Below, piece after piece: positions 6,282 to 59,354 of a stretch of 61,168 nt of DNA. The stretch is from the NCBI GenBank assembly GCA_019155205.2, contig JAHNZQ020003150.1:1920766-1981933 (forward strand). The letters are read 5' to 3'. Below the pieces are notes generated by a model. The model made no database searches and was not told the origin of the DNA. It saw only the letters and a program-made list of their open reading frames with translations. Within the stretch, counting starts at the first letter, position 1. Every line of letters begins with the position of its first letter. The stretch comes from Gracilaria vermiculophylla. Taxonomy: Eukaryota > Rhodophyta > Florideophyceae > Gracilariales > Gracilariaceae. A program made the translations under genes and the position numbers.

Positions 6282-6323
6282 TAAGTGCTACAACTTTGCG
6301 CAACAGATTCACGAATCCAATCG

Positions 6324-8163
6324 ATGAGTTGGGAATATGAAGGAGCACTACCCATTTCAAATGCACAGATTTCGTGGTATCCTTTTTCGGAAGAGATTTC
6401 AAAGAAGCTCAGTGTTTTGTTTCAGAGGTATCATTCATTTGAAGAAAAAGAACATACAGTTATAATCGGTCTCAATGAAACTTTGTACACAGCTGACATA
6501 AAGGAATTTAAGATTACGCATCTTCAAAGAGAAACTGCGTCAAATATTCGCATGGCTAACCAGTCTTTATCCATCAAATGCATGTTTAATGGAGGATATG
6601 GGTACAAATGGGAAGAAACTCTTACGACCATGCTCGGCCATATGGAAAAAGCTGCATGTTTCATAGGTCCTCAAAGGGACAAGAGTATTGTTCCATTGAG
6701 AGAACTTACTTTTCAAGCTCTCAAGCCATTGAATCCAGAAGATTGGAGAGTCATCGTAGTAGCCCAGAAACCTGTTCGTTATTTTCTCCGTTTTTTTTGG
6801 GACCTGCGTTCTGGATAACACTAACTTGTCTCATAATTCTTATGATTTTCATAAACAAAAGTCTGGATCTATAGATTCCGCTGCAGGTTTGGCCATTTAC
6901 GACCCGACATTAATGAACTGGGACGACAAAAAACTTGGGACAATGACCTCTATGCGTTGCTTCTTCAAAGCAGCTGCGATGACAAAGTATGAAATTGATC
7001 CGAAAGTTAATCTAAATGACTTGCGATCTTTAGTATCCGCAAAAGAAGTTGTATCCCCACAAGAATTGTTTCAGAGCATGATTTCTCAGGGGGTTCTTTT
7101 TCTCAACGCTTCCTTTACCAATGGCGGTTCCTACTCCATTTCAGATCACACTGCGTTCTGGCTTCCTGTACTAAAATCTATCATAGGAAAAATATTACAT
7201 GCAAAAACCAAACTGCAGAATACTGACGAGCGCTTAGGTTTGGTGCTCTGCTGGTGGGGTGGCGATATGAAAAACACAAAAGTTCACTTTAAAAAGGTTT
7301 TGGATAGGTTTCCGCAGATTCCATTGCGTCAAATACATTGGTACAGCCCTGCCGCTCGTGGAGACTTGTTCTGCAAGAAACCGCTGCATTTGAACGAGGT
7401 TAATAAACATTTGGCAAATCTAGAAATGAGAACAATAGATTGGCTTCCCATCAAGAATCAGAGAAAAGAGAGAGGTCTAGTGCCGGCAGCTTTGAGAGAT
7501 TTTATCTTAAAAACAAGAAGCTGGCATGCTGTGCATCTTGGACATTTGCGTGGAATATTTGAGTTTGAAAAGGATGTTCAACCAATCACCGGAGTAAGAA
7601 GCACAACTCCGGAAAAGTTAAAGTTGTCTCATAAAACACTCCAGAATACGAATGTTACTACAGGAATAGATCGACAGAATGCCGGAAGCATCTTGATGTT
7701 ATGCAGTGACGAGATGAATGCTTTCAATGAGTACAGACGTTTACATGGGTATTTGAATTCTAGTATGAGGATGAAAACTTGTTACAAATACTATCCATTT
7801 CTGTCTCTCTTTCTGAAAGCTCATGACAAGCTCCGACCCGCTTCCGAGAATCTTCAACTATATCGCGGAATACGCATTAATCTTCGCGATACATATAAGG
7901 TTAACCAAATCGTAACTTGGTGGGGCATCAGTAGTTGCTCCTCGGACATTGCAATCTCACGAAGATATGCTCGACCATCTGGTACTATTTTTTTTATATC
8001 TGCGAGAAGTGCTGTGTCTATTACAGCGTACAGTGGAATTTCAATTCTGAAAGAATACTTACTTGCCCCTGGAACTCGGCTGCAGGTGATGAAAATAGAG
8101 CAGAGGAACAAATTTCTGCACATCTATGTACGCGAAATCCCTGGAGAAAGATTAGTGCGTTAA
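6324..8163 (+). CDS. WWE - uracil-DNA-glycosylase-like - ADP-ribosyltransferase fusion protein (one frameshift)
   Basis: The first ATG after an in-frame stop begins MSWEYEGALP. Residues 1-77 or so fit a WWE domain (WEYE; SWYPFSEE; YTADIKEF; NIRM), a fold that binds ADP-ribose polymers or ends. Next comes a family-1 uracil-DNA-glycosylase fold: VPLRELTFQALKPL, RVIVVAQKP in place of VVxGQDPY, then AAGLAIYDP (6880-6910), QGVLFLN, LVLCWWGG, HWYSPAARGDLF in place of HPSPLS, and IDWLP. The C-terminal 110 residues fit an R-S-E ADP-ribosyltransferase: YRG (Arg), GISSCSSD (Ser), KEYLLAPGT (catalytic Glu, but the first Glu of ExE is Leu). The glycosylase catalytic Asp is Lys, so base excision is unlikely. 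The reading frame shifts by one at a run of eight T's (6791-6798); one T fewer joins both halves. Role is inferred only: NAD-dependent modification targeted to nucleic acid or ADP-ribosylated sites. Confidence 0.75.
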
Positions 8164-11000: not shown

Positions 11001-13282
11001 ATGCGATTCCGCGCCGTCCCGGAGATTGCGTGGAGCGACCAGAAGCGGAACCGCGTCGATGCGTACCGGGCCCATTGGGTCCGCACTCCAGTACATGGTG
11101 ACAACGCTCCAACCACGGTCGGACACTGCGATACTCCTTATCTGAGGTGCTTCGACGAACGGGAGATCCAGGCGCGACTCCAAGTCTTGCTCCATAAGGA
11201 GAGCTCGCACCTGCGAGCGGGGCGAGAGGAAAGCCTTGCCGGTGGACGCTCCGCCCTTGCGGTGCTACCCTTTGATCCCCCATACGACCGCCTGTACTGG
11301 CTCAATCGGAATCGATGGGGGACGCATCTCGCGGACGAGACTCGCGTACGCACCTCGTTCGGGTACTTTTACGGATGGCACAACACGGAATTCCATGATA
11401 TGCCCTCCGGACAACGTCCAAAGTACTACCTGAAGGTGAACGACTCCTGGAGGGACCATTGGGTTTCCCCGCGTCTCTGTGTGGCGACTCCCATACCCTT
11501 TGCGTATCACACCTCGGAGGTTCTGCATCCACATGACTCCCTAGGACGGTTTGTTATGTCGGTCACCTCGACGGAGTTTGCGGTAGGCACCCTAATGGCG
11601 TATCTCCAAGCGGCGGACGAAGGCGTGACTTCCTATACCCGATGCCCCGACGGCCGCCTCTACTGGAGCTCGTCGTATCAGCCCACCGCCGGGCGGGTGC
11701 TCCCCTTGTCGGCATCCATAATACAAGTCCTGCGCTCCTTCGGTATCCAAAACCTGGTTAAGGGCACCGCATGGAGCGAGTCCGAAGCCGAGACGCCGTT
11801 GACTCGCGACAGNNNNNNNNNNNNNNNNNNNNNNNNNNNNNNNNNNNNNNNNNNNNNNNNNNNNNNNNNNNNNNNNNNNNNNNNNNNNNNNNNNNNNNNN
11901 NNNNNNNNNNNNGGGGACGCACCTCGCGGACGAAACTCGCGTACGCACCTCGTTCGGGTACTTCTACGGATGGCACAACACGGAATTCCATGATATGGCC
12001 TCCGGACAACGTCCAAAGTAGTACGTGAAGGTGAACGACTCCTGGAGGGACCATTGGGTTTCCCCGCATCTCTGCGTGGCGACTCCTATAACCTTCGCGT
12101 ATCACACCTCGGAGGTTCTGGATCCACAAAACTCCCTAGAATGGTTCTTCATGTCGGTCGCCTCGATGGAGTTTGCGGTAGGCACCCCTGATGGCGTATC
12201 TCCAAGCGGCGGACGAAGGTGTGACTTCCTTCACCCGATGCCCCGACGGCCGCCTCTACTGGGACTCGTCGTATCAGCCCACCGCCGGGCGGTTGCTCCC
12301 CTCGTCGGTGTCCATCATACGAGTCCTGCGCTCCTTCGGTATCCAAAACCTGGTTAAGGGTACCGCATGGAGCGAGTTCGAAGAGGAGACGCTGTTGGAG
12401 TTCAACCTCCAGGTGGGGTAGAATGACCCACCGGGTTTCCTCTGGTACGACTACGGCGAGGACAAGTTTCATCCCATTGTGAGGAGTCCGAACGGAGACG
12501 ATGACGGGCACGCATATCCTGCCTTTCCCAGTCTGTCGCCGTCTCGGGTTCCTCAGGTGCCGCGGCGTCGAATACCCGACTACGACCCTTTGATGGAGAG
12601 TCTGGCGTTTGATGCGCCCCGTCGGTTACCGGCTCCGTCCCAGGATATGGACGCCCCTCCTGAGGTGATACCTCCGCGACCCGCCGCGGAGCCGAGTGCT
12701 CCCGCAGTGGTCGCTGCCGTGTCTCCAATGGAAGAGGATAAGATTACTCCCGTCCCGATACGTTCCGCCCTCATGGTGCAACCCCGATTGCGAAGCGTCC
12801 CTGCGCCGAGTGCTCAACCTCGCCTGCGGAGCGTTCCAGTTCCCTCACCACCGTCACCTCCGGCGTCGCCGACTCCGCCCTTGGCATTGCCGTCCTCCAC
12901 TGCGGAGTCCGCGGAATCCCGTCGGAGAGCTCCTGCCTTGGCTGGTCCGCCGTCTGCAGCTCCCTCCGTGGCGGTTGTTGCGCCGTCAACGGAGGTGGCC
13001 GCATCGGGTGCACCGTGGGATGGAGTCTCCTCTGGGGCTCTGGAGGCTGCCTTCCAGGAGTTGGTGCAGGCGTGCCTGGTGACAGGTCGTCCTGCTCCGG
13101 CTTCTCCTGTGGAGGCTCTGCGCGAGGCGCGTGCTTGGGTCTTAGAGCTCCATAAGGCCCGGACAGACCGAGCCTCGATGGCGGCCCTCAAGGACAGCCT
13201 GGCGGAGTTCTTCGACAGCCAAGCTCTAACAGCGAAAGCGCGCCTCGAAGCGGAGTATTCAACGCGGTTCGGTGATCTGTAG
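11001..13282 (+). pseudogene. Convergent accessory ORF inside the chromovirus, tandemly duplicated
   Basis: The frame runs opposite to gag-pol, in the region between pol and the 3' LTR. The first part opens at ATG 11001 and is uninterrupted to the gap at 11813; it is rich in aromatic motifs (DRLYWLNRNRW, FGYFYGWHNTEF, GRLYW). From 11913 to about 12400 the segment 11317-11800 recurs as a diverged tandem copy, now with a TAG in place of a Tyr codon (about 12019), a one-base insertion near 12187 and a TAG at 12419-12421. In the same frame there follow FLWYDYGEDKFHP, a long Pro/Ala/Ser-rich stretch, and an alpha-helical C-terminus ending YSTRFGDL. I do not recognise the protein. Antisense or extra frames in the 3' region are known in some plant gypsy elements; homology is not claimed. 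Confidence 0.55.
11813..11912. other. Assembly gap (100 N)
   Basis: Exactly 100 N, so a placeholder of unknown true size. It lies between the two tandem copies in the convergent ORF, where repeat collapse is likely. Confidence 0.98.
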
Positions 13283-13557: not shown

Positions 13558-14928
13558 GTGGTATCGCCTAAGGAAGTTCTCCGGGATATATTCCGGAGGT
13601 TTTTCCGTATCGTCCTTCGAGGTGTACCCGTACCAGCGGACGCGGTACAGTAATCCTGCAGGGGTTCGTCGATGCTAGACAATATGATCAACCGCGTAGA
13701 GGATGTCACCTTCAGGGGTCATGATGGCATCGGGAGCCTCCAGGATTGGCTCACCAAGGGCGGTGATGCGGTTCCCAGTATCCCGTGGTGCCGCCGTGCC
13801 TGAGGTGGTGGAATAAGGAATCTCCGCGCGGTGTCCCTGAAGTGGGGTGGCGGGCATTCCTGGAAGGCTGGGCGTTGACTTTCGTCACCCTATCACCGGA
13901 GACGACATCCTTAAGCCCATTCATCTCAATGGCGACAGTATCCCTGTAGGTGGCGAGGACTTTGAAGGGCCCTGAGGTGGTAGGCGCTAACTTGCGCGTG
14001 GCATCCGGCGGTTCATCGGAGTTCTCCCCGGGTTTATTGAGGAACACCTCGTCGCCTTCCTTCAGGTGCGGACCTTCCATAACCTTTTGGTCGAAGTCCT
14101 GTTTTTATCTCCTCTGCGTGGCGTTGAGTCTCTCCTTCGCGAGGGAGAGAGCGTTCTCATATCGCCTTAAGATGGAGAGTTTGGCTTGTGCCGCTGTTGG
14201 CATCTGTGGCCCATCCGCCGAGTGCGCCGTGGCGCGTGCCGTGATGAAAGCACTTGGCGGAATGCGTGAAAGCACCAAATTAAAAGGAGCAGTCCCCGTG
14301 GGGCGGTGCACCTGTAGGTTGTATGCATACGTGAGGGGTCCCACATATGCGTCCCATTCCTTCTGGTGGTCCGCGACGTAGTGCTTCAGCCTCGAGGCGA
14401 TGGTTTTGTTGAAACTTTCCGCCTGGCCGTTCGTCTGCAGGTGATAGGCAGTGGTAAACAACTGCTTTATCCCCAGCATTCCGGAAACGGCGCTTAAGAG
14501 TTTCGCCGCGAATAGAGGCCATTGTCCGTAAGGAGGTACAACGGTATCCCGTAGGGATAAACCCACTGCTCCAGAAAGGCGTCGGCAATCACGGCTGCAG
14601 TAGTGCTCCGAAGGGGGATGGCACGCGTGATCTTGGAAAAGCGGTCCGTGATCACGAGGATAAATCGATGCCCTCGCTCCGTCTTGGGGAGAGGACCCAA
14701 GAGATCCATGGCCACAAACTCCAACGGTCCTGAAGGTGGGAACAGCGTGAGCGGCGTCCGGTGTTTCCGTATACTCCCCCTAGCGGCGGCGCAAAAATAG
14801 CAGTCCGCCACCATCTGGAAGACGGCGCTGGCCATGTTCGGCCAATAGGACTCCCTACGCATGGTGAAATACATCCGGGATCCACCGGGGTGCCCGGCGA
14901 GACGCGGATAGTGCGAGAGGTACAACAC
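13558..14928 (-). pseudogene. Chromovirus integrase with C-terminal chromodomain, frameshifted
   Basis: It continues in the RNase H frame after one TGA (RA-stop-VLYLSHYPR; the usual residue is Arg, so CGA to TGA is likely). The zinc-binding region is intact: HYPRLAGH, then CYFC. Core motifs FVAMDLLGPLPK and LLTDNG give the first two catalytic Asp residues. A frameshift near 14530 moves the rest, including the Glu in NGQAESFNK. Further on are a GPY/F-like module (TTSGPFKVLATY, frame opening at 14080) and a chromodomain: YAVDHIV, a frameshift at about 13680, then GLLYRVRWYGYTS and EYIPENFLRRY. Integrase inserts the cDNA into host DNA, and the chromodomain can tether it to modified histones. Inactive as it stands. 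Confidence 0.85.
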
Positions 14929-14931
14929 TCA

Positions 14932-16671
14932 CGCCCGTAACTTCGTCGGCACCACCTCTTGGAGCGCTCCATCCAGAGGGGCGCGGCGTACAAGCACGCT
15001 GTCACGGTTGACATCAAACGATGATGTCAAACTCCCCACAGTGGCGAGGCACTCATTGCAGTACGCATCCGTACTCTGCTCCTTCAGGAATTCCTCTACG
15101 GTAATAGGGAGGACTTCTTTCTCCCCCTCAACAAAAGCCATCACCTCAGGGAGTCCACTGTACTTTCCTCCAGGTTCACAGCATTCCAAACATTCTTCGT
15201 CGGATCCTTCTTTCCTGTTGGCAATCTGGATGACCAGACACGGGATGTTGTCCTCCAAAGGTGTTGTATCCTCCCCATCGGGGGAGATGCGCGAGAGCGC
15301 ATCCGCGGCTTGGTGTTTTATGCCAGGACGATGGAGGATTTCAAACTCGAACTCCAGAAGGCGCAACCTCCACCTTTCTAGGCGACCGGAAGCATCCGTC
15401 AAGGATAGTATCCACTTCAGTGGTGCGTGGTCCGTCCTCAAGGTGAAGCGCGCGCCTTTCAGGTATGGGCGTGAAAGCAAAACCGCCCTCACGATGGCGA
15501 GACACTCGCGCTCCGAAGTGGAATAATTCCGTTCCGTAGGGTAGAGGCTGCGACTCCAATACCCGATGGGTTGAAGTCCACCTTCAGGTTGTTCCTGCAG
15601 GAGGGCACATCGAACCTGGTATTTACAGGCGTCAGTGTCCAAGACCATTCGGCCGTGTCGCTTCGGCAATACCAAGATTGGTGGTTCTATCAGTCTCCTC
15701 TTCAGGGTGTCGAAGGCTTCAAACTCCTCGTCCGTCAAGAGAGCCAATTGCGTCGGTTTGTCCTTCTCCAGGAGGAGATTTAACGGCGCCGCTATACGGG
15801 AGAAGTTAGGGACAAACCGCCGGAAGACGTTACACAACCCAAGGAAGGAGCGGAGCTCCGTCTGGTTTGGGGGAGGGCGAGATTCCTTAATGGCGTCCTG
15901 AATTTTCCTAGAATCCTGTAGGTGGGCCGGGAGCACAACGTGCCCCAGGTAGTTCACCGACGGCTTGTAAAAGAAACATTTCTCCAGCTTCAAGGTGAGG
16001 CCAGCATCCTTTAGGAGTTGGAGCACGTGCTTCACATGAATGAAGTGCTCCTCCACGCTGCGGGAGTATATGATGACTTCATCGATATACACCAAGGCGT
16101 GGTGCCATTTCACCTTTGACAGGATAATGTCCACCGCTCGTTGGAACGTAGCGGGTGCATTCTTCAACCCAAATGGCATCCTTAGGAATGTGAAGATCCC
16201 ACAGTGCGAGGTGAACGTTGTCTTATCCTTATCGGAGTCGTCCATCTCAATCTGCCAGTAGGCGCTATTGGCATCCAGCGTGGAGAACACGGATGTATCG
16301 CCTAAGGAGTCGATACATTCATCCATCTGGGGTATCGGGTACGAATCGCGTACCGTCACCTCCTTAAGGCGCCTGTAGTAAATACAGAACCTTATGGGGC
16401 CATCTTTCTTTTCGAAAAACACCACCGGGAAGGCCCATTTGGAATTGGAAGGCTCTATAACGCTCTTCTCCAACATCTGGTAGATTTCATCGCGTTCAAA
16501 GTCACGCGCTTGGGGTCCGGCCCTCCTTGGGAGTTGATGTACGGGCTTAGCATCCGGTGTGAGATGGATCCTGTGCTTGGCCAGGCTGACCTGATCCAGG
16601 CGACCAGACCACATGTCCTCTAAGGCGGATAGCATCTCCACTATCCTATGGCGATACCTTCGAATTCATCG
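14932..16671 (-). pseudogene. Chromovirus reverse transcriptase and RNase H
   Basis: A frame of about 580 codons. The RT region has WAFPVVFFEKKDG, RFCIYYRRLK (usually C-V-D-Y-R), TLDANSAYWQI with the first catalytic Asp, and the active-site box YIDEV near 16085, where the normal second Asp of YxDD is Glu. RNase H follows with LDTDAC, a conserved Glu region (SERECLA) and TDHAPLKW. The substitution in the catalytic box argues for loss of polymerase activity. The upstream protease frame ends at 16707 and the RT frame opens at about 16671; an in-frame TAG then a shift separate what was once one polyprotein. Confidence 0.9.
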
Positions 16672-35088: not shown

Positions 35089-35188
35089 NNNNNNNNNNNN
35101 NNNNNNNNNNNNNNNNNNNNNNNNNNNNNNNNNNNNNNNNNNNNNNNNNNNNNNNNNNNNNNNNNNNNNNNNNNNNNNNNNNNNNNNN
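35089..35188. other. Assembly gap (100 N)
   Basis: Exactly 100 N. It replaces the rest of the nested family B element, a place where near-identical transposon copies would confuse assembly. Confidence 0.98.
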
Positions 35189-36972: not shown

Positions 36973-37815
36973 TTAACCAATTGGTTTCTTGGAATGGTTG
37001 ACAAGACACTTGCTCAAGTCAACAGAAATGAGACCAGAGTATAGAGTAAGCTGGAGACTCTTTCCAAGAGGACTATCTCGCTTAGTCATGGGATCTGCGA
37101 GATTGAACTTAACCGGTATCCAGATAATTTCGTCGATTGCTCCAATCCCAAAGTCGTATAGGAGAGATGCAACATCACCCTTGATGGTCTTGTCTGTAGG
37201 CAAACGTTTCGTAGAAATGGTTTCAAATAAATTCTTGGTGTCCACAATGACATACAGTCCAACATTAACTCCAAACAGCTTACTACAAGCATTCTTCAAC
37301 AACATGCCTTCATCAGCAGCAGCACTCGTCCCAAGGATCTCAGCAGAGACAACGGACCTCACTGCTCTCTTTGCGCGTTTGGAGAACCAAGTCAGGGCAT
37401 GAAACACTGCACCGGTAGAAAGGTTTCCAATCATTAGTTCAGTTATCATTCCATGTTGTCCTTTGTCGTCAGTCTTACTGGTATCAGCAAAGCATACAAT
37501 GTTCAAAGGAAATTTCCCTTTGCTTTCCGGGCGTACACACTTCGTCACAGTCCCAGGTTCCTTAACACCACGCACAAGTGTGTTTTGTAATACCAAGTCA
37601 CAAACCGTAGCAGTAGGGGATCTTCGCACAATATAACTCGCAGGAAATGCACAGAAAGGAGAGGAAATCCCACCAATCCAACACAACTTGCCATTGATGC
37701 TCTGATAGTGGGCTCTCTCAATCTCATTGAGGCTTTCATGTGGTTGTTTATGCCGTGCATGGTCAATGGATATCTCTGTTATGTTGTCAAGTTTCTTGTC
37801 TGAAGACACAGTCAC
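36973..37815 (-). pseudogene. Copia RNase H region
   Basis: A 280-codon open frame matching the copia polymerase C-terminus: HYQSINGKLCWIGG (connection region), CFADTS with a catalytic Asp, SAEILGTSAAADEG, YVIVDTKNLFETI and the terminal IIWIPVKFNLADPMTKRD, the usual ending motif. RNase H removes the RNA strand after reverse transcription. It is out of frame with the upstream reverse transcriptase, which breaks up between 38079 and 37816; KVVDDILIAAP, holding the V-D-D active-site box, is still readable near 37950. Confidence 0.85.
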
Positions 37816-38078
37816 GACCGTGTCACTACCCTGATCAATCTTAAGTCCCTAAAACTTGAAGCAAACAGGTCCATAAACGATCGTTACTAGCTTGAAATGG
37901 GAGCAGATGTGCGCCACCAGACTATTGGCTCGCGATATAGGAGCGGCAATGAGAATATCGTCAACAACCTTAGCCGCAACAAGTAAAAGCTCACCACCAG
38001 ACCTCGCAAAGAATAACTGAGGCACTCAGGAAGATATTGTAGTCCGTAATCATACAGACAATCATCACTTGCTGCTTG

Positions 38079-38582
38079 CTACTTGGAGTTAGCGTTTACA
38101 AGTCCATATGAGGCTGTCAAGAGCAGCCAATAGAACTTCACGCGAGTCTCAGACTCCTTCGGGGGGCGTACGTAGACATCACGTGTACTGGCTCCACTCT
38201 GCAGAAACGCCGAATCAAAATCAGCCTTAGAAAGAGGCCATGATAGCGTAGTAGCAATACTGCAAACTAGTCGCAAGCCAATCGGAGAACAGCTGTTCGA
38301 GTCAGTTTTCAGCAATGACTTCATACGGTAACGGATACTGTGGGAAACGATCCGAGCATTGATGCACAGCTGTCCGTTGTCATTTGATTTGACCTTGTAC
38401 AGTGTGTGGCTTGATATGATGTTCGCAAACTTGGGTATCTTGGGCACATGAACTTTCTTCGCATGGTCCAAGTATGATTTCTCTTGCGCAACATACGCAT
38501 TGTGAAGCACGCAACGCGGTAGATCCTGAGCCTGAGATGATGTAAATTCCTTGAAGCCAAAGTGGTCGCGATATTGTTTCAC
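38079..38582 (-). pseudogene. Copia reverse transcriptase, first half
   Basis: A 167-codon frame following the Tudor-like domain. Motifs: KVKSNDNGQLCINARIV (the K-x-R-x3-G equivalent), SWPLSKADFDSAFLQS, where the first catalytic Asp sits in ADFDSAFL, DVYVRPPKE, and the LLTASYGLVNA segment. The frame ends at NSK-stop just before the active-site box; the rest is frameshifted. It would copy the element RNA into DNA if intact. Confidence 0.85.
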
Positions 38583-38693
38583 AACTGACTCGCTTTCACT
38601 GGATAGTTCACAAGTCGGAGTTATCTCAACATTACTTGCTACGGCATTACGCTCGCTCTCAGTTTCACAACGATCAGGGCCATTGTGAACAAC

Positions 38694-40889
38694 TTAATAT
38701 TGTTCTTTCTTCATATCCAGTGTTTCACTGTCGCCATCGTCGTAGCGGATGGTATGTGTATCAGTACGAGAATTGTGGCGGGCAACAGTTCCTTCATAAA
38801 ACTGGTTATTATCTGGCCAGAATACTTTCACACGATCTCCAACGTTCAGGGAAACATTTTCAATGAGCTGGGCAGGTTGGCTATCATCGAAGTTGACATC
38901 CACACCTGTAGTGTCAGCAGTATCAATGGGCTGCGCAGGTTGAATTTCATCACAATTGATATCATCACCTGTTGTGTCAACAGTGTCTTCGGCATCATTG
39001 TCATTGGAATCATCACATGTTGTGTCAACAGCGTCTTCAGCATCATTATCTGATAAAATGTCATTCTCGGTAGTAAAAGGTTGAGCGATGGACATATCTT
39101 CAACAACTTCATCCACATTCTCATCAACAAGAGCATCTAAGTCATCATTCGCAACTTGTAACTGCCTGGCGAGAGATCCATTCTCAAGTGCAATACGAAC
39201 ATCTTCAAGGGCAGCAGTGCCAATCTTTCCTCGCTTTCCAGGGTGAGTGATACATTGGGTATCAGCATTAACAGATAATACTCTCTTTGGACCAATTCAC
39301 TTCCCCCTTTTTTGATGACTTGACTTGACGTACACATCCACAAGGTCACCAACAGAAATGGGCGGTAACTTCACAGTCTTTGATCTCAATATCACATTGA
39401 GTTTGCGTTTTGCTTTAAGCACATTGTGTGCCTCGATCAGGTCAGGAGGGACTTGAAGCATAACACGATCATCAACCAGAGGGAGTGTGTAGCCCTTTGC
39501 AAGCTCATAGGCACTTACAACATCATTTCCATAAAGGTTGTTGGCAATGCAAAATACTTGCTGAACAACCATTTGGTCTGTTGAGTCAGAAGTAGAGTTA
39601 CACTCCTTGATTCGCATGAGAATATCACGGAATACACGATGTATCGATTCTAACACATTCTTGTTGTGTCGTCGCGATGGTACAGGTAGCACCTTAATAC
39701 CAACTGAATCAGCATACTCTTGAAATTCATCTGTGTTAAACACTTGATCGGCAAGGAGAGTTTTCGGATAGCCATACCGAGATACCCAGATCATTTCAAA
39801 ATGATCAATTGCTTCACGAACAGTCCTAGTTGTAACGATAGCACCTTGAGAAAGACGAGTAGATGAATCCATAAGGTGTAAAATAACATGCTTGTCGAGA
39901 AATACATGAACTAAACACACACGGTCATTTCAAGAGCTACTCAGATCAGGTAAAGAAACCTTTCGCATATCCTTCGGCTCATCGGTCACCTTAAATTGAT
40001 GGCAAACATTAGCGGTTTGGTGTAAGTAGGCCTTCACCTCATCAGACCAGATATCATTTCGATCCAGCAGGATCTGCATATCTCTTACAGAAGCATGGCC
40101 ACAGACGTGCTTATGCACCTTATCAACAATGGCCTTGGTTTCTATCCAAGAACGTTGAGAGGCTTTGGCAGAGAAGAAGGCAACTACACAATATGCCTGA
40201 GCGCATTCGCAGACATTGCCGAATGCCGAAAGCGGAACATAGGAAAGCAGGTCATGGTCAACCAAAGAAATGGTTATCTGAGCACCAGAATCCTCAAAGG
40301 CTGGTAGTTCCAGTCTGTTGGCATTAATGTGTTGAATATTACTATGCCTTGTGATATTCCGACCAACAACCCATTGACACGACCCTTTGATCACCAAATG
40401 TCTTATGTGGACAGTGTTGCCTTTATCGGATCTGACATCTATCAATACAGAACCAATAATTCGTCTAGGCTTGCTCGCATGATTTCCATTACCATATTGC
40501 CAATAAGGCCTGTGAGCAATTTCCGTTGGCAGCTCATCAAAATTACCACAGTAGTTCGTTTTGAGCTTAGAACGTAGAATGTGAAATTGATTTTCTCCAA
40601 TACCGGAGTACGGAGCACCATCATTGAGAAAAGGTCTGGTTTTAAGAGAAGAGTCCATGTCAAATGATCCACTTAAGCATGCAGTGACCTTAGCCATATT
40701 GAAAGTTACAGCTCCCTTATCAGAAGAATCTTCTTTGGCATCTCTACATGGCGTATTTGGCTTGAGTTTGCTGTTATCGAGATGGTCGGAGTCCCAGTGA
40801 CCCCACTTGTGACATTTTGCGACATTTTGAATTACACTTCTTCCTAGCCAACTGCTCAGGTGCCAGCTTCGGCCGGGATGACACAGCAC
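38694..40889 (-). pseudogene. Copia protease, integrase and Tudor-like domain
   Basis: One frame interrupted by a few stops (for example at the SSS-stop-NDR and RGK-stop-IGP positions). After CHKWGHWDSDH (zinc knuckle) come the protease (FLNDGAPYSGIGENQF; LPAFEDSGAQI is a second candidate box) and the integrase: HKHVCGH, then CHQF, the HLMDSSTR Asp, LLADQVFNTDEF Asp and NKNVLESIHR Glu. An acidic low-complexity stretch follows (D-T-T repeats near 38900-39080). The end is a compact barrel-like motif VGDRVKVFWPDNNQFYEGTV followed by HTIRYDDGDSETLDM, a Tudor/Agenet-type module that may read chromatin marks. A TAA then precedes the reverse transcriptase. Confidence 0.8.
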
Positions 40890-47986: not shown

Positions 47987-50870
47987 ATGGCATATACATC
48001 CCACACCACTATTCCTACCCTTTCAGCGGTGGATTTGAACCCCACGGAAGAGATGAAGTACGAAGCTACTCTGAATGGCCACAGCGTTACCTTCCATCTC
48101 GATCCTGGCGCTTCTCACGCCCTCCTCTCCCCCGGTGCCGCCAAATTGTGTAACCTCCCTTGCAAACCCTTGCGCTTCTGCCAAACGGTACTCAGAGACA
48201 GCTCCACCACCCCGATTTCGGCCGAAGCAGAAGCAACTATCTTTATGAAAGATTGCTGCGCATCAATAACAGCGTACGTAATCAAGATGAAGTAGCACAG
48301 CAATAACCTACCCTTGATCACGATAGGCCGTGACTGGCTCCGTCAGACAATACAAACCATCGATTTGTCGTCACACTCGCTCTCCTTCAGGCGCGCCGAT
48401 GGATCGAGCTTCACCATACACCCTCGTCGCTCCGTATCCCCTAACACGCGGGCGAACACGGAAACGATACCGACGATATCCTTCAAAAGACTCCGCAGAT
48501 TGGCCAAGAAGCGATCCTGCGAACTGTACACTATTCGACTCAGCCCGGCTTCCTCCGTCAACTGCCATTCCGATCGAACGGAAGTTGTTGAGGAGTTTTA
48601 ATATGTTTTTCGGGAAGAACTCCCCGATACTCTGCCGCCATCTCGCGATTTCGATGTTGAAATCAACCTTAGGAGCGACGAACCGCCCCCTGTGCGACCC
48701 GTCATTCGGCTCTCTGCACAGGAACTCCTCGTCCTCCGCAACACATTGGATGCCCTACTCCGAAAAGGCCTCCTTCGTCTTTCATACTCCCCTTATGGAG
48801 CACCCGTCTTCTTCGTTAAAAACAAATCCGGCGAGCTCCGAATGGTCTGCGACTATCGCGGCCTCAAGCGCATAACCATCGCGGACTCCACTCCACTTCC
48901 CCTCATCGATGAAGCGTTGGATCAGATGGCGGGCGCGAAATTCTTCTCTCAGATCGATTTAGTGAGCGCCTACCACCAAATGCGCATCAAGGAGAAGGAT
49001 TGCCATGAGACGGCCACAAGGACCCGATTTGGATATTTCGAGTGGCGCGCCCTATGCTTTGGACTCACCAACGCGCCAGCCCCCTTCTCACGACTGATCG
49101 CCTCCGTCCTACGTCACTTGAATGGCTATTTTTTTGTACTGTATCTGGATGATATTCTCGTCTACGGTAGTTCACTGGAGGAGCACAAGTTGCATTTGCG
49201 TGCCGTCCTCGAGGTACTTCGGAAAACTCAGCTGTTCGCAAAATTGAGCAAATGTGCATTTGGTGTTCGCGAAATGGACTTCCTTGACTTCAAAATATCT
49301 GCCCAGGGCATCACCGCGCAGGAACATTTTGTCACTGCGGTTCGCGGCTGGCCAACATCCCGGAATATCCGCCATGTGCAGCCGTTTCTGGGCCTCGCCA
49401 ACTTCTATCGGCGTTTTGTCAAGGGCTATGCACACGTTCTCTGCCGAATCTCGGATCTACGGCACTCACGCGTTTTCCAACGGGACTTAGACCAGGCCAA
49501 TGCCTTCACCATCATTGAGGACTCTTTGACATCAGCGCCAGTTCTGGCACACGCGTACCCCTCCAAAGAGTTCGTTTTGGCTACCGACGCTTCCCAATTC
49601 GCCGTCGGTGCCACGCTGTCGCAAGCGGGGCATCCCATCGCCTTCTTATCCCACCGCCTCTCACCCACTGAGACCCGCTGGGATACCGGCGATCAGGAAC
49701 TCCTCGCTGCAATGATTGCACTCCGCACGTGGAGCCCTTACTTCCGCGGAAGGCACTTCACGCTCTTGACGGATCATGATTCGATCAAGTACCTCCAGAC
49801 AAAACCCAAGCTGTCCGGTCGCCAATGTCGCTGGTTGGACGAGATCCAGGAATTTTCCTTCGACATTAAGCATGTCATTGGGACCAAGAATGTCGCCCCC
49901 GAAGCCCTCAGCCGCCGTCCTGACCACGAACCCTCGCGTCTGTGCGCTCTCATGGCACAGTTCGACGACCTCCAGAACCGTGTGCGGGCTGCGTATGCTG
50001 CGGATGCTCTTGCTACAAAACTACTCAAATCAGACACTTCTCCCAACCAATCCACCACACGCCTACCGAACAACTTCAACTTCAATGATAGGGTCATCTA
50101 CTGGACTTGCACTCTCCCAGCACGCATGTACATCCCCGAAAGACCATTACGCACGGAGCTAATGCATCACGTTCATGGACTCGGGAATCTCGGAGCTGAT
50201 AAGACGTATTGCACAGTTATGCGCCACGCGTATTGGCCCCAGATGTACCGGGATATCTTTAATTTCGTGCGCAAACGCCGTTCATATCAGGTGAACAAGA
50301 CACCCAACGTCGCTCCGCCAGGACGCCTACAGCCACTTCCGATCCCTCAACGATGTTGGCACATCATCTCCTTCGATTTCCTCACGGAGCTCCATCGCAA
50401 CAGAAACGACCAGGATGCCATCCTTGTGATTGTGGACAAACTCTCAATGCGAGCCCTTTTTATCCCAACCTCCAAGGCCGCATCTGCGCAGGAGACGTTT
50501 GGGCTCTTCGACACACACTTGATTTCCAAGTATGGAACACCACCCACGATGATCTCAGACCGCGACCCCAAGGTCACTTCCCACTTTTGGCGATCCCACT
50601 TTTGGCGATCCCTCACCCGGCTGTTGCCTATCCGGAACAATATCTCGACCGCTGACCACCCTGAGATAGATGGACAGTCTGAAAATCTAATCCTGACGCT
50701 CTCGTCGGTGCTACGTTCCTCCATACAAGCAGCGCCAGCCGATTGGCACCTCGCCCTTCCAACACTGGAGTTTGAATACAAATCCTCCCGTCATGGCAGC
50801 ACCCGTCTTTCCCCTTTCGAAGTCAGTCTTAGCTACATCCCGCACTCGCCACCCGCGCTCTGGACAACAC
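47987..50870 (+). pseudogene. Chromovirus 2 protease, RT, RNase H, integrase core
   Basis: One frame with only two stops, TAG at 48293 and TAA at 48599. Protease: FHLDPGASHALL (D-P-G in place of D-T-G) and LITIGRDWLR. RT: FFSQIDLVSAYHQM and VLYLDDILVYG, an intact Y-L-D-D box. RNase H: LATDASQFAVGATL, GDQELLAA, TDHDSIKYL. Integrase: HHVHGLGNLGADKT, but the C-x2-C reads RRSYQ, so both zinc cysteines are gone; ISFDFLTEL and MISDRDPKVT keep two Asp residues and IDGQSEN the Glu. A 15-bp tandem duplication (CACTTTTGGCGATCC) repeats HFWRS next to the second Asp. A frameshift near 50870 ends the frame. Confidence 0.9.
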
Positions 50871-51426
50871 TACAGCGCAGGCTGCAGTCGACTATGATTC
50901 TCTGCGCCAGGCGCTCACAGCCCTGGCTCGCGACAACTTGGCCCTCGCTGTCACCCGACAGAAGCATTACGCCGACCGCCACCGCTCCGAACTACACCTG
51001 GAACAGGACGACCTCGTCCTTCTGCGCGCCGACCGCCTCACGACAGCGCGATGAGCTACAATCCTACGAAAGTAGTAGCCCCGCTTCATAGGACCCTTTC
51101 GCGTCCTCAAAAAACTGGGACTAGTCACGTATCGCCTTGAGCTCCCGCCAACTATGTGCCACGCGCACGACGTGAACCACATATCAAAGCTGCGCTGATT
51201 TTACGGAGATCCACTAGGCCCTCTGGATATCGTTATCAATAATGACGGCGTTGTCGAACAGGAAGTTGATCGCATTCTGGACAAGCGACGCGCCAATCGG
51301 CGCATCTACTACCTCACGCAGTTTTGCGGCGATCGCGAATCCGATGCCAATTGGCTACCACGCGCGGCGCTTAAGAACTGTTGCGCGAAAGTCACAGAAT
51401 TCAACCTACAGCAGAAGCCTCACTGA
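50871..51426 (+). pseudogene. Chromovirus 2 integrase tail and chromodomain
   Basis: After the frameshift the other frame reads on through TRQKHYADRHR and DDLVLLRADRL to a stop near 51050; further along are FIGPFRVLKKLG (GPY/F module) and HAHDVNHISKLR. A stop precedes a last segment, GVVEQEVDRILDKR, IYYLTQFCGDR, NWLPRAALKN, which has the spacing of a chromodomain (E-V-x-x-I-L-x-x-R; Y-Y-L; W-x-P). It closes with LQQKPH-stop at 51424-51426. Confidence 0.75.
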
Positions 51427-51454: not shown

Positions 51455-52363
51455 TGTAACGAACCCGGCCATATTGTGGTACTGTCAGCCCTCCTGTCGA
51501 GGTAGTAAAGCACAACGTCCGTTAGGAGTTTTTGTTGACTCCAAAGGCGCGTATTCCTAAAGGTGGTCTCCAATATCCGCTGGCGCGAGCCGGGGGAATT
51601 CGGAAAGGAGATCCACAAACACAAAGCTGAGGGGGAGGTTCACTAGGCGGACAATGCTCCTACAGGCGCTGCTATGATGCGACCTGGGGATCGGCGGCTT
51701 ACAAACCTGTGTTGATCTACAAGAGACTCCAACCGGAAAAGTAGATGAAGACTCAAGGGTGCTTGTCTTTACTTCGCCAGAGGTGGAGCTCAACCGGCAG
51801 ATTAAGTATCAGGGCGGGAGCCCGCCTCGGGAGGTCTCGCTACTGTACTAATTACCTGCATTAATTATCTAAAATAAATAATAATTCTACCGTGCCTCAA
51901 GGATACTGCAGCGCACGCGGGCGAGATTATGCACCACGTGGCCCAGCTAATAAAAATACGAGCCCTCCTTAGGAATACTGTACCTTAAGGCCAAACCACC
52001 CTATTTCCGTAGGAGCCACTGTACTACACATATATCCTAGAGGTTCCAGCGAGTTGCGCTTCAAACTGCAAGCCTTGTCCCTGCATGTCGCAACGCGGCG
52101 CAAGAACATTGCAGTTTGTCAGCACGACGCTTGGTTCAAGCCACTTCGCAACATTGCGTCGTGTGCTTCAAGCACTTCAAGCACGCATCGCATAGTTCAA
52201 GCGCACGACGACATAGCGCCGTGCGCTACGAACGTACAAGTAGATAAAGTAGAAGGCAAGATGCTTAACGTCTAGTTTTAAGAATCACTGTAAAACACAG
52301 CCAGACCCACCCTGGAGAAGAGCGAAGGCCTGACTAGACTTCTTCCAACACTCCTGTGTTACA
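51455..52363 (+). repeat. Chromovirus 2 right LTR, interrupted
   Basis: The left 20 bp (TGTAACGAACCCGGCCATAT) and the right 330 bp match the left LTR. Between them sits the 554-bp solo LTR of the other chromovirus family. The split point corresponds to GCCATAT-GTCC in the intact copy at about 46000. Confidence 0.95.
51475..52028 (-). mobile_element. Solo LTR of the first chromovirus family
   Basis: 554 bp, plus strand TGTGGTACTGTCAG to GTACTACA, with a perfect 5-bp duplication CATAT at 51470-51474 and 52029-52033. It is the innermost and therefore youngest insertion of the three-level nest. Confidence 0.95.
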
Positions 52364-53810
52364 CGAAATACCTTTCCTCGCCCTATATAAGCTATTTGAG
52401 GACTATGAGCGATTGATCCTGTTTGGGTGCAGAGTCAATATATATATCCAGAAGGAAAAGAGAGGGAAAATGAATAATACGATCAAGCCCGGTATAATGC
52501 TTAAATACATCTCCAATTCTACTAAACGGATTGTACTGGACTGTAAACCAGCCAACCTCGTCACTGCACCGTCGACTTCTACTTATAACCCGAAAGACTT
52601 TCCTGCTGCTCTTCATGAAACTTTCAGGAACTTCATTTTAAAAAGGGAAGGTCTCATTCAACGGGATGAAGGAGACGAGAATGATTTCTTAGAAACTGTT
52701 GTGAAAGGGTCCAACTCAAAAATGATGTTTATGACTAGAATCGAAGTTTTAACTTCAAACATGGATAACGCATTGAAGATGCATGACTGAAAGAAATGGC
52801 TTGCTGCAATCAACCTTTATTTAAAAATTTTGCAAAATTTTGAAGCGTATGAACTCGTGAAAATACCTCATGAGCATGACCTAGGCCTTCTAACCGAAGC
52901 TTTGGGAATTCGAATCAAACGATATGAATCAGGAATCTACTTATCCACAAAATAAAAGTAGGTCAAGATTGTTGATGAATTTGAAATGAGAGATGCTGGC
53001 ATCCTGAACACGCCGCTTCCTCCTGGTCTGAAGTGTCCATCTCTGAAAAAGGTCCCAGATTCTGTCGTTATAGATAAATATAGAAGAATTATTGGAAAAC
53101 TTCTTTACCTATCACGATGTGTGCGCTTTGATATATCCTATGCTGTTAATTACCTATCAAGGTATTCAACGAACCACAATAAGTCAATGTGGAATCATAT
53201 GAAAGGCATACTAAGATACTTGAAGGGGACTTGCATGGAAATTATTTACAAGTATAAGAAGTATACTACAGTTCATGATGCTCACGTAACTGTATGGAGT
53301 AATGCTTCTTTTTCTGATGACTTCATTACCACAAGAAGCACTATTGGACATTTCGTATTTTGGGAAAGATACTTAATATCCTGGAGCTCCTCAAAATCTA
53401 AGAATGTCGCGATGAACACTACTGAGTCAGATTTTATTTCTGCAGCTGAAGAACTGAAGACGGCCTTCTACATGAAAAATATTAACAAAGAAGTATTTCA
53501 CTACAATTTATCCCTATCGCTGCTTGAAAACAACCAAAGTTGTATCAAATGGCTTAAGAATGCTACTGGATATCATGCAAGAACCAAGCATGTTAATATA
53601 CCGTATCATTTTGCGCGTGAGATGTTCCAAGAAAAACTTCTAGACATCAAATATGTTCCGTCATCAAATCAAATTGCTGACATTCTGACCAAGTCTCTTC
53701 CTGCCGTAACACATAAAGCATTACTTGAACTTATCTCAAGCTTCTCGATTTCAGGGAGAATGTTGGACACCAGGTCAGTTTCAGATCTCGAGAAGGCTGC
53801 ATTCAAGTAA
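52364..53810 (+). pseudogene. Copia 2 integrase end and RNase H, RT core deleted
   Basis: Coding resumes right after the nested element: ILFGCRVNIYIQKEKRG (the G-C-x-V-Y integrase tail) and MLKYISNSTKRIVLD. The connector then jumps, near 52795, to the thumb-like YELVKIPHEHDLGLL, so the RT palm and its active-site box are missing. RNase H is an intact 274-codon stretch (52986-53810): SRCVRFDISYAVNYLSRY, VTVWSNASFSDDF (usual Asp replaced by Asn), SWSSSKSKNVAMNTTESDF, and VPSSNQIADILTKSLP at the end. Without RT the element is dead. Confidence 0.85.
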
Positions 53811-54439: not shown

Positions 54440-55537
54440 TTGGTTGGCGTGTCCAACAAGGTTAAATCAGCAAAGATATGGATCGTGCTGCAGATCGAAG
54501 TTTCGCAAACGAGTGATGCCGTCCCTTGAGATGAAGAATGAAAATGACACAACTTCTGAAGTGAAATTAAGGGCTCTATCACTGAATACTGTCACGGATA
54601 AGTGCAACATATTGTATGAATGCACCGTGTATGGACAGAGAGTAATCAGGGACCTCAACCCATGTGCAACTCACTGTTTAATAGATCCAAGAGTGGCTTA
54701 ACGACTTGTCTTATCATTGTGCGCATAGAAAATGACGTTGAGCTCGAAAATGGATCAATGACCACAGTTCAATGTAAGATAATGGCTACAATGAAGTTTT
54801 AAAACGTCACAAGCACGGAAGAAATTTATATTTAACTATTGAAGGGGGATGTAAATTTTGTTATTGAAATGAAATGGTTGAAGACATCCAACTCGGATAT
54901 CGACTGGCGCAGAGGTTGTGTCCGAATCAAGCAAGCTCATGGTTCAACGAAGATACTGCGCCCTCAAAGTGCAAAACCAAGCAAGAACGCGATCACGTTC
55001 AAAAGGATTGCGAGCAAGACAATGAAAAAGCTCGTGCAGAAACGGAATGCAGAGCTGTTCGCAGTTATGATTCAGCCAACAAAGAACAGTATGACTTTGT
55101 CCTCTGACGTTTCCGACATGGTGACAGAATCCCAGGATGTTTTTCTAGATGAAATCCCAGACACACTGCCACCAAAGTGTGGAGTTGACTTTGAGATCAA
55201 CTTGAGGAAGGACCAGGCTTCTCCTGTAAGGTCGGTGATCCGTGTTTCTCAAGATGAGTTAGTACAACTCAAAAAAGAGTTGCAGTCGCTTCTATCCAAA
55301 GAACTTATCCACCCATCAAGCTCGCCGTATGAAGCCACCGGAATTTTTGTGAAGAAGAAGGAGGGCTACCTTCGAATTGTATGTGACTACCGGGCGTTAC
55401 ACAAGATAACCATACCAGACTCTAACCTCATACCGTTGATTTCTGAAGCAATTGGTCACGTTTGTGAGGCAAAGATCTTTTTTAAGATAGATCTATTATG
55501 GACCTATCATCAGATGCGGATCAGAGAAGAGGAAATG

Positions 55538-55822
55538 TTGTAGAAGCATCTAGAAGCTTCTAGGAAGCAACTAGAAACTGTTAATATCTAGAAACTTCTA
55601 GAAGGTTCTATAGAAGAAATTTTGTAGAAGTAAGTGTTTTATGATTTATGATAGAAACTATTGGAAGTTCTAGAAGACTATAGAACATTATGAGAACACT
55701 ATATAAGAAAGAATTGCAGACCAGGTTTGATAAATGATAGAAGTCAAGCCGAGTCATCGAGATAAAACAACATTGCGTTTACTCAAGTTTATCCTAAGCT
55801 CCGTAATACACCTATTTACAAT
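55538..55822 (+). mobile_element. Solo-LTR-like insertion with heat-shock-element arrays
   Basis: About 284 bp interrupt the gypsy RT between REEEM and TAIRT codons. Ends TTGTAG and TTTACAA are inverted (TTGTA and TACAA). Candidate duplications are uncertain: GAAAT occurs at 55532-55536 and 55825-55829, a few bases outside those ends. Length and terminal symmetry fit a copia-like solo LTR. No other copy is in the window. Confidence 0.55.
55541..55707 (+). promoter_or_regulatory. Heat-shock-element-like repeats and TATA box
   Basis: Alternating GAA and TTC units at 5-bp spacing occur in three clusters: TAGAAGCATCTAGAAGCTTC (55541-55560), GAAACTTCTAGAAGGTTC (55591-55608) and GGAAGTTCTAGAAG (55663-55676). 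TATATAAG follows at 55700-55707. The order, HSE arrays then TATA, is that of a heat-shock promoter. Confidence 0.65.
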
Positions 55823-56490
55823 AAGAAATATCAGAAGACAGCGATTAGAACGCTGTGAGGATCATTTGAAAGGAGGGTTTTTTGCTTTGGATTGATGAAT
55901 GCGCCAGCAAGATTCTCAAGACTATTGTCCACACTACTGCGAGACTTAAACGGAGATTGTTTGGTCTCGTTTGTGGATGACGTGTTGGCCTACGGTAGGT
56001 CAAAGGAGAAATATGAAAAGCACCTGAGGCGGCTTTTTGAAGTTCTTAGAGCATACAAACTGTACGCAAAATACTAGAAGTTTGTTATTGGAGTTAAAAA
56101 AGTCAAATTTCTTGGCTACACTGTCCCAGCAGACGGCATTGCCATGCAGGATCGTTTGAGGAATGCAATGCGGGAATGGCCAACACCTGTATCCGTACGA
56201 GAGGTGCAGCAGTATACGGGCTTGGAAAATTACCACAGGAAGTTTATCATGGTCTATGGTAGGATGATGCGGCCAGTAGGCGACATCGCTCGAGAAAAAC
56301 AATTCGAATGGGGGGATGAACAACAGAAGGCGTATGAAAAACTCAAAACTGCCCTCCCATCCGCCCCCGTATTGGCTCACCCATCGTCAGAGAAAGAATT
56401 AGTATTATCTACTTACGCATCGAAGTACGCCTTTGGTGCTACGCTTGGGTAAGACGACCGGCCAAAAGCATACCTCTCACATAGACGCAA

Positions 56491-57559
56491 ACAGCGTAGG
56501 AGGGCGCGCAACAGTGTGACGCGCACCGCTGTGCTTTTAACTGGCTGAGACTGCGGGCTGAAAAAGCGGCGCGAGGCGGTGCCGCTGCGGCTGCGGCGAG
56601 TCGGGCGAGCGGGGGATGTGAGGCACGCGCGCGCGCTACGTCGGGCAAGCGCGCGTACGAGCATTGGCAACGCGGTGTAATGAGGAGGCGTAGCGGTGCG
56701 GCAACTGGGCAGCAAAGCAAAACGGACGTGGCAAGGGGTTCGGGGCGCATCACGAGACTGCGCGCGCGATCACGAGGTTGCTCGCGAGCACGCGCGGCAC
56801 CCACGCAGCGGCGGCGGCCACGCCCGTGGGGCTCGGCACTGCCGGTGCAGAGCCGGCCGCGGCGGAGCTTGGCGGTGGAACGCCGTGCTGTCCGTGCGGC
56901 GGCGACTACGGCGGCTGCGGTGGCGCGTACCACCGGCGCGCCCGAGGTGGGGGCGGCCATAGCGCGCAGACAGCTGAGCGGGACGCCGCACGCGCGCGGC
57001 CAAAGTGCGCCTGGTGGCGCAGCGGCGCGAAAGCCCCGCGAGGCGCACTAATGCGCAGTGAGCGACACGCTGGGGTTGGCAATCGCAATAACGCGCGTGT
57101 TGCGCGCATGTGCTGCGCGCGCGCGCCGCCGCAGCGCTCACCAGCAGACAGCGCAGCCGCATCGCGCCGCCGCCGCGCCACTGCGTGGACAGATCACCGC
57201 GACGCACACGGCGCATTGCTTTTTCACTGCTTTTCCCCTGCTTTTCCACTGCTTTTCGACGGCGCCGCTGCGCGCACGCGCGTGCTTTGTTTGGCCGCCA
57301 TCAAGCCGCGCGCCGCGCGCGCCTGCAGCCGGGGCCCCGCCGCTGCCTTTGAAAGCGGCGCCGCGGCGCCGCGGCGCCGTCCGCTCTCTGTCACCGCCCG
57401 CACTCACCGCACCGCCGCGTTGCCATTCGCCTGCTGCACTCGCTCTTCCTCAACTGGGCGCGCCCAGTTGTTTCAGAGCGAGGAGCCGTCTTCCACCGCA
57501 TGGTGCGGGGGCGCCCGCCGCGCCCGCCCTCCAGCCCTACCCATCTGCCGCGCAACCAC
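56491..57559. other. Very GC-rich sequence of unknown content
   Basis: GC content is so high that nearly every frame stays open, so open frames are not evidence of genes. No motif is recognised. It may hold the promoter or N-terminal coding part of the next gene. Confidence 0.4.
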
Positions 57560-58196
57560 TGCCGCGGCCCCCCTACGCCGCTGCCGCCGATCCGCAGCCG
57601 CCGCGACCCCTGTCGAGCGCCACCTGCCCCTCTCGCTGCCTGGGCACCGCCGCGCCTCCGATCTCCCGCACGACGCCTCCATGCACCGTCCGCGCCAACA
57701 GACGCAGCTGCAGCCGCACCGCACCTTCTCTGTGCGCCGCCACAACTCACACGCACAACTGCAGTCGCGCACGCTGCCCGGCCTGGACATCCTCTCGCAC
57801 GCCGCGGTGCATTATGACGACTTTTTGCAAAGCTCCAACGGCTCTAATTCGTCCGCGGATCCGCAGCGTCCGGAGATATCGGTATACACACCCATCTCAC
57901 ACGCCGCACGGCGTCTAGTGGATCTGTTTGGCATGGAACGGCAAAAGCAGAAGTAACAGGAGCAGCTGCAGCAGCACTACTGCTGGGGTAGCAACTGGAG
58001 CAGAGGCAACTGGAGTACATGGAGAATCAGTGACACTTGGAGCAGCAGCAGTTGGAGCTGCTAGAACAGCAGCGCTTGAACCAGATGGAAAAGCAACCGC
58101 AGCAATGGAAGCAGCAGCAGTCACAGGAGAGCGCGCACAGAGCCCTGGAACCGGCGGTGCCGCACAAACTTCGACCAAACTTCCCGGACCCCAAGG

Positions 58197-58257
<61 letters not shown>

Positions 58258-58826
58258 CCCCACCCAACAAGACGCCTGCATCGGTTCAGGCGCCGAGAGG
58301 CAGTCAATCGACCGAACAGCAACCAGCGAGAGTTATAGGATCGCAAGAACGGCCATTACCGCTTCTCGATCCCGCTGGTGCCGCCCCGCGCGCGTGACGG
58401 CGGACGTCAACACTTGTTCCAACCGCCACGCCACGCAACACGGATGGCGGATGAGCATGTGCAGTACGTGGTGGCCGTGCCCAGCGTGGAAGACGCGCCG
58501 GCGCCGCGCGCGCTGTCGCCCGCCGTCAGTCCAAATGCACGACATCCCGTGGGGGAACCCGTCGTGAATGTGCCGGCGCTGCCGTGGCGCCACGCCACGC
58601 TGAAACTGCACAAGAACGGGGTGGCGTGGCAGCCCGCGCTGTGGGAATTCATGCTGTAGCGGCGCGAGCGCATGGAGCGCAAGCTGAGTTGCGCAAGCCG
58701 GCGCAGCGCACGCTGGCGATGATGCCCGTGGGCTTGGCGGTGGGCGCGGGCGCGGCACAGCCGCCCACGGGCGCGCCCATGGCGCATGGCGCCACGACCT
58801 ACCTGGCCTCAAGCTGAGGGTGCGCG
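57560..58826 (+). pseudogene. Unknown GC-rich gene, left (plus-strand) copy
   Basis: Comparison with the inverted copy at 59345-60570 defines the coding frame. Conserved segments in order: HRRASDLPHDASMH, HRTFSVRRHNSHAQLQSRTL, HYDDFLQSS and ADPQRPEISVYTPI (frame 0); a Gln/Glu-rich coil-like region (QLELLEQQRLNQMEKQ); a proline run encoded by the poly-C tract; CIGSGAERQSID; and RARDGGRQHLFQPPRHATRM with VQYVVAVPSVEDAPAPRA. Frames change three times and a TGA is shared with the other copy. The gene is not recognised. Differences between copies are often conservative, which argues it was once protein-coding. Confidence 0.5.
58198..58254 (+). repeat. 57-base poly-C tract
   Basis: 57 consecutive C's, then T and more C's. 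The inverted copy has only six C's at the matching place (near 59901 on the minus strand). Confidence 0.98.

Positions 58827-59323: not shown

Positions 59324-59344
<21 letters not shown>
58827..59344. other. Centre of the inverted duplication
   Basis: Unique sequence between the two copies. Both strands have long open frames: plus-strand LKSSFRIVRQWRSLIARMYI and, on the minus strand, MYILAMRERHWRTILNDDF. They are antisense to each other, so at most one is real; the minus-strand one continues the right-hand gene copy. Confidence 0.4.

Positions 59345-59354
<10 letters not shown>

Follow-up and report, generated by a model that had tools for sequence, protein, structure and literature searches.

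A red-algal gene belongs to a family that joins a uracil-DNA-glycosylase-like domain to an ADP-ribosyltransferase domain and adjoins macrodomain genes in actinobacteria

Main finding

Positions 6324 to 8163 of a 61,168-nucleotide stretch of the red alga Gracilaria vermiculophylla (contig JAHNZQ020003150.1, positions 1,920,766 to 1,981,933 of the forward strand; hereafter, the window) carry a gene whose predicted spliced product combines a WWE domain, a domain resembling family-1 uracil-DNA glycosylase (UDG) and an ADP-ribosyltransferase (ART) domain. The first-pass annotation, made from the letters alone, had recognised these three domains and linked the combination to no family described so far. 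The domain assignments hold, on Pfam scores near the cut-offs for WWE and ART, a family profile and a collinear relative; the gene is not unique, as homology searches place it in a large family, here denoted UDG-ART, in which a UDG-like domain is followed by an ART of the PF01129 type, the algal protein being collinear with its relatives. We consider it somewhat more probable than an even chance that in this family an altered UDG fold targets an R-S-E ART to a base or lesion, that a macrodomain protein reverses the modification, and that in actinobacteria this pair is wired to DNA damage.

Gene structure and domains of the algal protein

Two overlapping open reading frames (ORFs) cover the locus on the forward strand, ORF 1 at 6285-6818 (methionine codon at 6324) and ORF 2 at 6763-8163, and contain all the motifs named in the first-pass annotation. 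The break between the two frames fits a spliceosomal intron at 6774-6861 (88 nucleotides, phase 0, GT-AG, with a branch-point-like CTAAC ending 36 nucleotides before its 3' end), which would separate exon 1 (6324-6773; 150 codons, WWE and the first part of the UDG-like domain) from exon 2 (6862-8163; 433 codons plus stop, the rest of the UDG-like domain, a linker and the ART domain) and give a protein of 583 residues. Among the 12 frame-restoring, stop-free GT-AG pairs between the ORFs, only 6774/6861 joins the alignment to relatives without a gap, as judged by eye: the predicted junction VIVVAQKP + SGSIDSAAGLAIYDP aligns in this manner with FGQNPYPRVESATGIAMFD and, again by eye, AQKP/SGSIDSAAGLAIYDP aligns with GQNPYPRVESATGIAMFD in relatives. 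A homopolymer error, suggested initially as the cause of the break, is not needed; a frameshift of that kind would insert 29 or 30 residues in the UDG active-site loop compared to the aligned relatives and, because the intron leaves no gap, is the less simple reading. Exon 1 begins with MSWEYEG, similar to MKWQYYL at the start of P0123, a collinear WWE-UDG-ART relative, with equal W3/W18 spacing. The nearest named relative, a Gracilaria domingensis protein annotated as 'Uracil-DNA glycosylase family 1' (48-49% identity over the shared part, E 1e-123), has a gene model that starts just past the position of the algal splice junction and seems to miss an upstream exon.

The WWE domain (6327-6551, residues 2-76) matches PF02825 marginally: the first 90 residues score 22.5 bits, above the cut-off of 21.1, ORF 1 scores 20.1 bits (E 8.7e-4), just below it, and the whole spliced protein scores 17.6 bits, below it; the same model gives 37.4 bits for P0123. 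A WWE search of the algal genome returned no match and is uninformative, given that the controls were likewise matchless. The UDG family-1-like domain (6567-7449, about residues 82-346, split by the intron) contains AQKPS, LFLN, IHWYSPAA and IDWLP; it does not reach the Pfam UDG model, and scores well short of the cut-offs of the NCBIfam ung models (E 8e-4 and 0.017). The ART domain (7558-8160, about residues 383-583) falls just below the PF01129 cut-off of 22.3 bits (21.9 bits, E 1.2e-4, in the search with the two ORFs), and its assignment draws also on the family profile and the P0123 model; neither of the two ORFs matched the PARP catalytic domain PF00644, even at E values up to 10.

The profile of 50 family rows, sampled from 201 proteins and excluding the window, matches UDGs of solved structure at 3.2e-17 and ARTs of solved structure at 4.3e-12, and the predicted model of P0123 shows both folds, which settles the UDG and ART assignments and supports the earlier proposal of a UDG fold with altered catalytic residues in the middle of the protein. 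In the P0123 model, the first 30 residues are poor and WWE is absent from the fold matches listed.

Signature residues

Across 202 rows (the window and 201 homologs), the position of the UDG catalytic Asp is occupied by Asn in 173, Ser in 23, Gly in 2 and Lys in 1 (the window), with 3 gaps; Asp is thus absent from all 199 rows that are not gapped at this site. The window has AQKPS instead of GQDPY, so that the first-pass annotation was right about the loss of the Asp and, having read AQKPV, wrong about the fifth residue, which becomes Ser after the predicted splicing. The Asn of the base pocket (LFLN, 7096-7107) is kept in the window and in 199 of the 202 rows. The catalytic His is kept in 192 rows, and Trp replaces it in both the window (IHWYSPAA, 7333-7356) and Gracilaria domingensis.

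The R-S-E layout of the ART was described correctly from the outset: its Arg (LYRGI, 7858-7872), Ser (WWGISSCS, 7918-7941) and catalytic Glu (KEYLLAPGT) are present in all 202 rows. The first Glu of the E-x-E site is kept in 200 rows and is Leu in the window (L-K-E, 8047-8055) and Gln in G. domingensis, and the algal protein accordingly departs from the arginine-specific form of the R-S-E motif. In 80 bacterial loci (described below), GQNPY was found in 79, with one not matched by the pattern, and LLLN, the His, and the ART Arg, Ser and ExE were found in 80 each.

In the WWE domain, the Gln and Arg that we take, from RNF146, to be the iso-ADP-ribose-binding signature are kept in P0123 (MTQRN..TVRGIRR) but replaced in the window, as aligned by eye. 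The claim that the WWE domain reads ADP-ribose is therefore doubtful for the algal copy, whose WWE match is itself marginal.

Family membership and distribution

A search with five rows yielded 1169 proteins at E <= 0.001, and all 120 of these that were listed have PF01129, with query coverage of 84-100%; a search with the window and G. domingensis sequences yielded 982 proteins, 120 of them listed. Among the matches listed, the named sources are Streptomyces, Nonomuraea, Micromonospora and kin, Gemmataceae, Myxococcota (Sandaracinus) and Symbiodinium natans, and further eukaryotic members come from MMETSP and EukProt. Source annotations call members 'uracil DNA glycosylase' or 'ADP-ribosyltransferase domain-containing protein'. 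Additional fused domains include Macro (PF01661, e.g. P0157) and SAP (PF02037, in P0143 and in P0131 from MMETSP). Apart from these, P0033, one of the 10 rows without the UDG His, has an HDAC-like (AcuC) domain, PF00850, ahead of UDG-ART; P0134, P0136 (S. natans) and P0138 share an N-terminal region that matches no Pfam model and carry Ser at the UDG Asp position; and residues 1-75 of P0046 form an additional N-terminal region, also without a Pfam match.

In a tree of 51 of the 202 rows (quick method, midpoint root, window flagged as a long branch), the window pairs with G. domingensis (SH-aLRT 100) and falls with the WWE and Symbiodinium-like proteins (18 rows, support 99), the other set of 33 rows holding the named bacteria and both SAP proteins. 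Phage sequences gave 31 records with UDG-only stretches, none covering more than 80% of the query, and one pattern scan of viral contigs confirmed no UDG-ART. A plasmid collection gave 14 records, with 4 full-length matches, all on large actinobacterial replicons.

Macrodomain neighbour and promoter motif in actinobacteria

From 204 loci confirmed in a genome scan, 80 were kept, all actinobacterial by their titles. In 79 of these, a macrodomain gene lies upstream of UDG-ART (66 divergent and 13 same-strand, by tblastn), the aligned parts being 49 to 540 bases apart; in the remaining locus, UDG-ART begins 25 bases into the contig. Of 9 stretches guessed to hold the neighbour, Pfam detected Macro in 5 and none in the other 4. 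Compared as an alignment of 12 of the 79, the partner has its best profile match in macroH2A1.1 (E 0.0011), and matches the DarG entry 5m31/5m3e at E 0.032; in PADLOC, the macrodomain matches DarG at E 0.037. Judged from these profile comparisons, it is a distinct macrodomain with no close solved relative.

For divergent pairs, the promoter region was the sequence separating the two genes; for same-strand pairs, it was the 300 bases preceding the macrodomain match. The motif TTGTCRGTG-N8-TANNNT, which we take to be the RecA-NDp consensus, has its core (at most one mismatch) in 65 of the 79 regions, compared to about 4.9 in shuffles, and the −10 T, A and T, which lie outside the core search, are nearly invariant (64, 65 and 64 of 65). 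The composite motif occurs 72 times in 64 loci over 19,130 promoter bases and 5 times in the remaining 1,573,842 bases of the 80 loci. As a control for the consensus, the recA genes of 6 of the 80 genomes were used: in all 6, the motif is on the recA strand and precedes the RecA-domain match by 84 to 99 bases (4 exact, 2 with one mismatch), and it lies 66 bases upstream of the one recA start codon that was located. No clear excess of LexA-type patterns was found between the macrodomain and UDG-ART genes. PMC6789036 and PMC8223512 describe RecA-NDp promoters as targets of the damage activator PafBC. The DNA-damage setting that had been guessed for the algal gene is supported through its bacterial relatives, by their promoter motif and macrodomain neighbour. 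In orientation, the core motif faces the macrodomain gene in 50 divergent loci, UDG-ART in 2, and the operon in 13 of the 13 same-strand loci, with 14 loci lacking it; since it mostly faces the macrodomain, only the 13 same-strand loci and 2 of the divergent ones suggest that the ART itself is under damage control.

Genomic surroundings of the algal gene

The gene is single-copy in the algal assembly (44.8 Mb, 27 contigs), and a mobile-element origin was rejected on this ground in spite of the retroelement-like frames around it. By eye, long frames resembling Ty3/gypsy reverse transcriptase-integrase lie at 14105-16665 (reverse strand), 48602-51091 and 54836-55543 (both forward), and pieces resembling Ty1/copia polyproteins at 36973-40889 (reverse) and 52338-53810 (forward). 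The window also contains a 5S rRNA gene at 60946-61062 (forward; Rfam RF00001, 45.9 bits), runs of exactly 100 N at 11813-11912 and 35089-35188, which are probably scaffold gaps, and a region at 56001-60000 where GC reaches 64-68% and proline/alanine-rich frames occur on both strands. Elsewhere in the genome, there are seventeen phycobilisome-domain matches; two phycobilisome gene sets, at 3.0-3.18 Mb of contig C17 and 15-103 kb of contig C20 of the assembly (G000), are perhaps plastid sequence inserted in, or misjoined to, a nuclear contig.

Interpretation

Under the reading that we favour, most members, having lost the general-base Asp (now Asn) but kept the pocket Asn and the His, probably use the UDG domain to flip out and recognise an abasic site or a base, be it uracil, thymine or a lesion. 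The domain would thereby aim the ART at the recognised site, where DNA, the enzyme itself or locally bound proteins would receive ADP-ribose; in actinobacteria, the adjacent macrodomain protein would probably remove the mark, and the pair would be wired to the recA-type damage promoter and hence induced. WWE or SAP modules would extend targeting in other members, in parallel with PARPs. The algal copy, for which a nuclear role would be expected, may have a different acceptor or act as a scaffold, as all three domain signatures are further changed; judged from its residues, such an altered role is as likely as the ancestral one.

Several observations weigh against this reading. The algal copy lacks the UDG Asp, the UDG His, the first Glu of ExE and the WWE signature residues; its WWE match is marginal, and the structure predicted for exon 1 (14 rows, pLDDT 52) contains no confident WWE fold. 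An exon-wise search detected no Macro domain in the alga, which does not prove absence. UDG-ART was found in 36 of 150 Streptomyces-family genomes and 2 of 198 phylum-wide, with the starting genome in both counts, and this patchy distribution makes the gene accessory. Finally, the damage-type motif of 50 of the 66 divergent loci points towards the macrodomain gene and away from UDG-ART.

An unlikely alternative, although one that the last two observations fit, is a toxin-antitoxin or anti-phage module resembling DarTG, in which UDG-ART is a self-poisoning DNA ADP-ribosyltransferase held harmless by a macrodomain raised on DNA damage. The near-constant macrodomain neighbour (79 of 80), the patchy distribution and the prevalence of the motif on the macrodomain side, as for an antidote raised on damage, are compatible with it, as are reports (PMC9411070, PMC5087735) that the DarG homologue SCO6735 counteracts DarT and has a promoter of the same type. 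Yet the ART is of the PF01129 type, the resemblance of the macrodomain to DarG is weak, 13 of the 79 loci as well as the fused forms seem to have both parts under one promoter, and the alga has no macrodomain match. Nor did direct evidence emerge for the anti-element role proposed at first: PADLOC had no match for three UDG-ART relatives, and the scan of viral contigs confirmed none.

Still less probable is an active glycosylase coupled to an ART, with the UDG-like domain removing a base and the ART capping the abasic site left behind. Enzymes of the TDG/SMUG1 type have Asn in place of Asp, and it is Asn, not a random residue, that occupies this position in 173 of the 202 rows, with the His and pocket Asn kept in all 80 bacterial loci. 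This reading sits poorly with the Ser or Gly found there in 25 of the 202 rows, including P0136 from Symbiodinium, with the Lys and Trp at the Asp and His sites of the window, and with the canonical ung also present in all 6 host genomes tried. It is very improbable that the algal locus represents a decaying, frameshifted pseudogene or a pair of genes mistaken for one, since the frame break at 6774-6861 (where splicing is predicted only), the single copy and the signature residues altered in all three domains are set against an exact GT-AG fit with a gap-free alignment, 583 codons otherwise open with 48-49% identity to Gracilaria domingensis over the shared part, and the independent collinear relative P0123.

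Animals recognise base damage and signal through ADP-ribose in two distinct steps, which PARP1 links. A broader interpretation, to which we give somewhat less than even odds, is that UDG-ART and its macrodomain partner form an undescribed bacterial pathway of DNA-damage-induced, reversible ADP-ribosylation, where an altered UDG fold finds a base lesion and the ART marks it, shared by red algae and dinoflagellates, the WWE and SAP members forming a PARP-like system of independent origin. If so, a single polypeptide, present in bacteria, red algae and one dinoflagellate, would unite lesion recognition with ADP-ribose signalling; in bacteria a putative eraser and a damage-type promoter accompany it, and the bacterial pair would offer a simple model for lesion-directed ADP-ribosylation, testable by two-gene constructs. 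In those Streptomyces that carry it, UDG-ART would also be a candidate for the protein ARTs 'yet to be uncovered' there, in the words of a passage of PMC5087735.

Comparison with known systems

A search of titles and abstracts in the open-licence literature, a scope outside which older domain surveys fall, found no description of a UDG-ART fusion; PMC11377751 and PMC8946771, at the places where the terms occur, mention UDG and ADP-ribosylation separately. The parts are known, given that source annotations already name UDG or ART; within the scope of this search, the system is not.

UDG-ART resembles DarT/DarG and SCO6735 in pairing an ART with a macrodomain partner, and its actinobacterial recA-type motif resembles the RecA-NDp promoter of UV-inducible SCO6735 (PMC5087735). 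Unlike DarT, its ART is of the PF01129 type and fused to a UDG fold; PADLOC found no DarT-type ART in P0066, P0157 and P0123, the relatives included in that run, which have PF01129 instead. SCO6735 was considered as the UDG-ART partner and rejected: it adjoins a permease gene (PMC9411070) and is absent by name from the rows of the PDB comparison of the partner macrodomain.

With family-1 UDGs, of which Nitratifractor salsuginis UNG (5x3g) is the nearest, the family shares the fold, the PYPR loop, the pocket Asn and, in most members, the His loop, whereas the catalytic Asp is replaced (199 of the 199 rows with a letter there) and a C-terminal ART is added; a canonical UNG is encoded separately in the alga (L084). 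With R-S-E mono-ADP-ribosyltransferases (ART2.2 and the ART of the toxin/immunity pair 6drh), it shares the fold and the Arg, Ser and Glu motifs, the differences being the UDG fusion and the first ExE Glu, which is Leu in the window and Gln in G. domingensis.

PARPs with WWE or SAP modules are known architectures. The one PARP-domain match of the alga itself (L087, contig C14:3940440-3941024) shows, by eye, a WWE-like segment ahead of the catalytic domain. UDG-ART resembles PARPs in placing a DNA- or ADP-ribose-binding module ahead of an ADP-ribosylating domain; it differs in that it has no PARP domain match and a UDG fold takes the place of the PARP DNA-binding parts.
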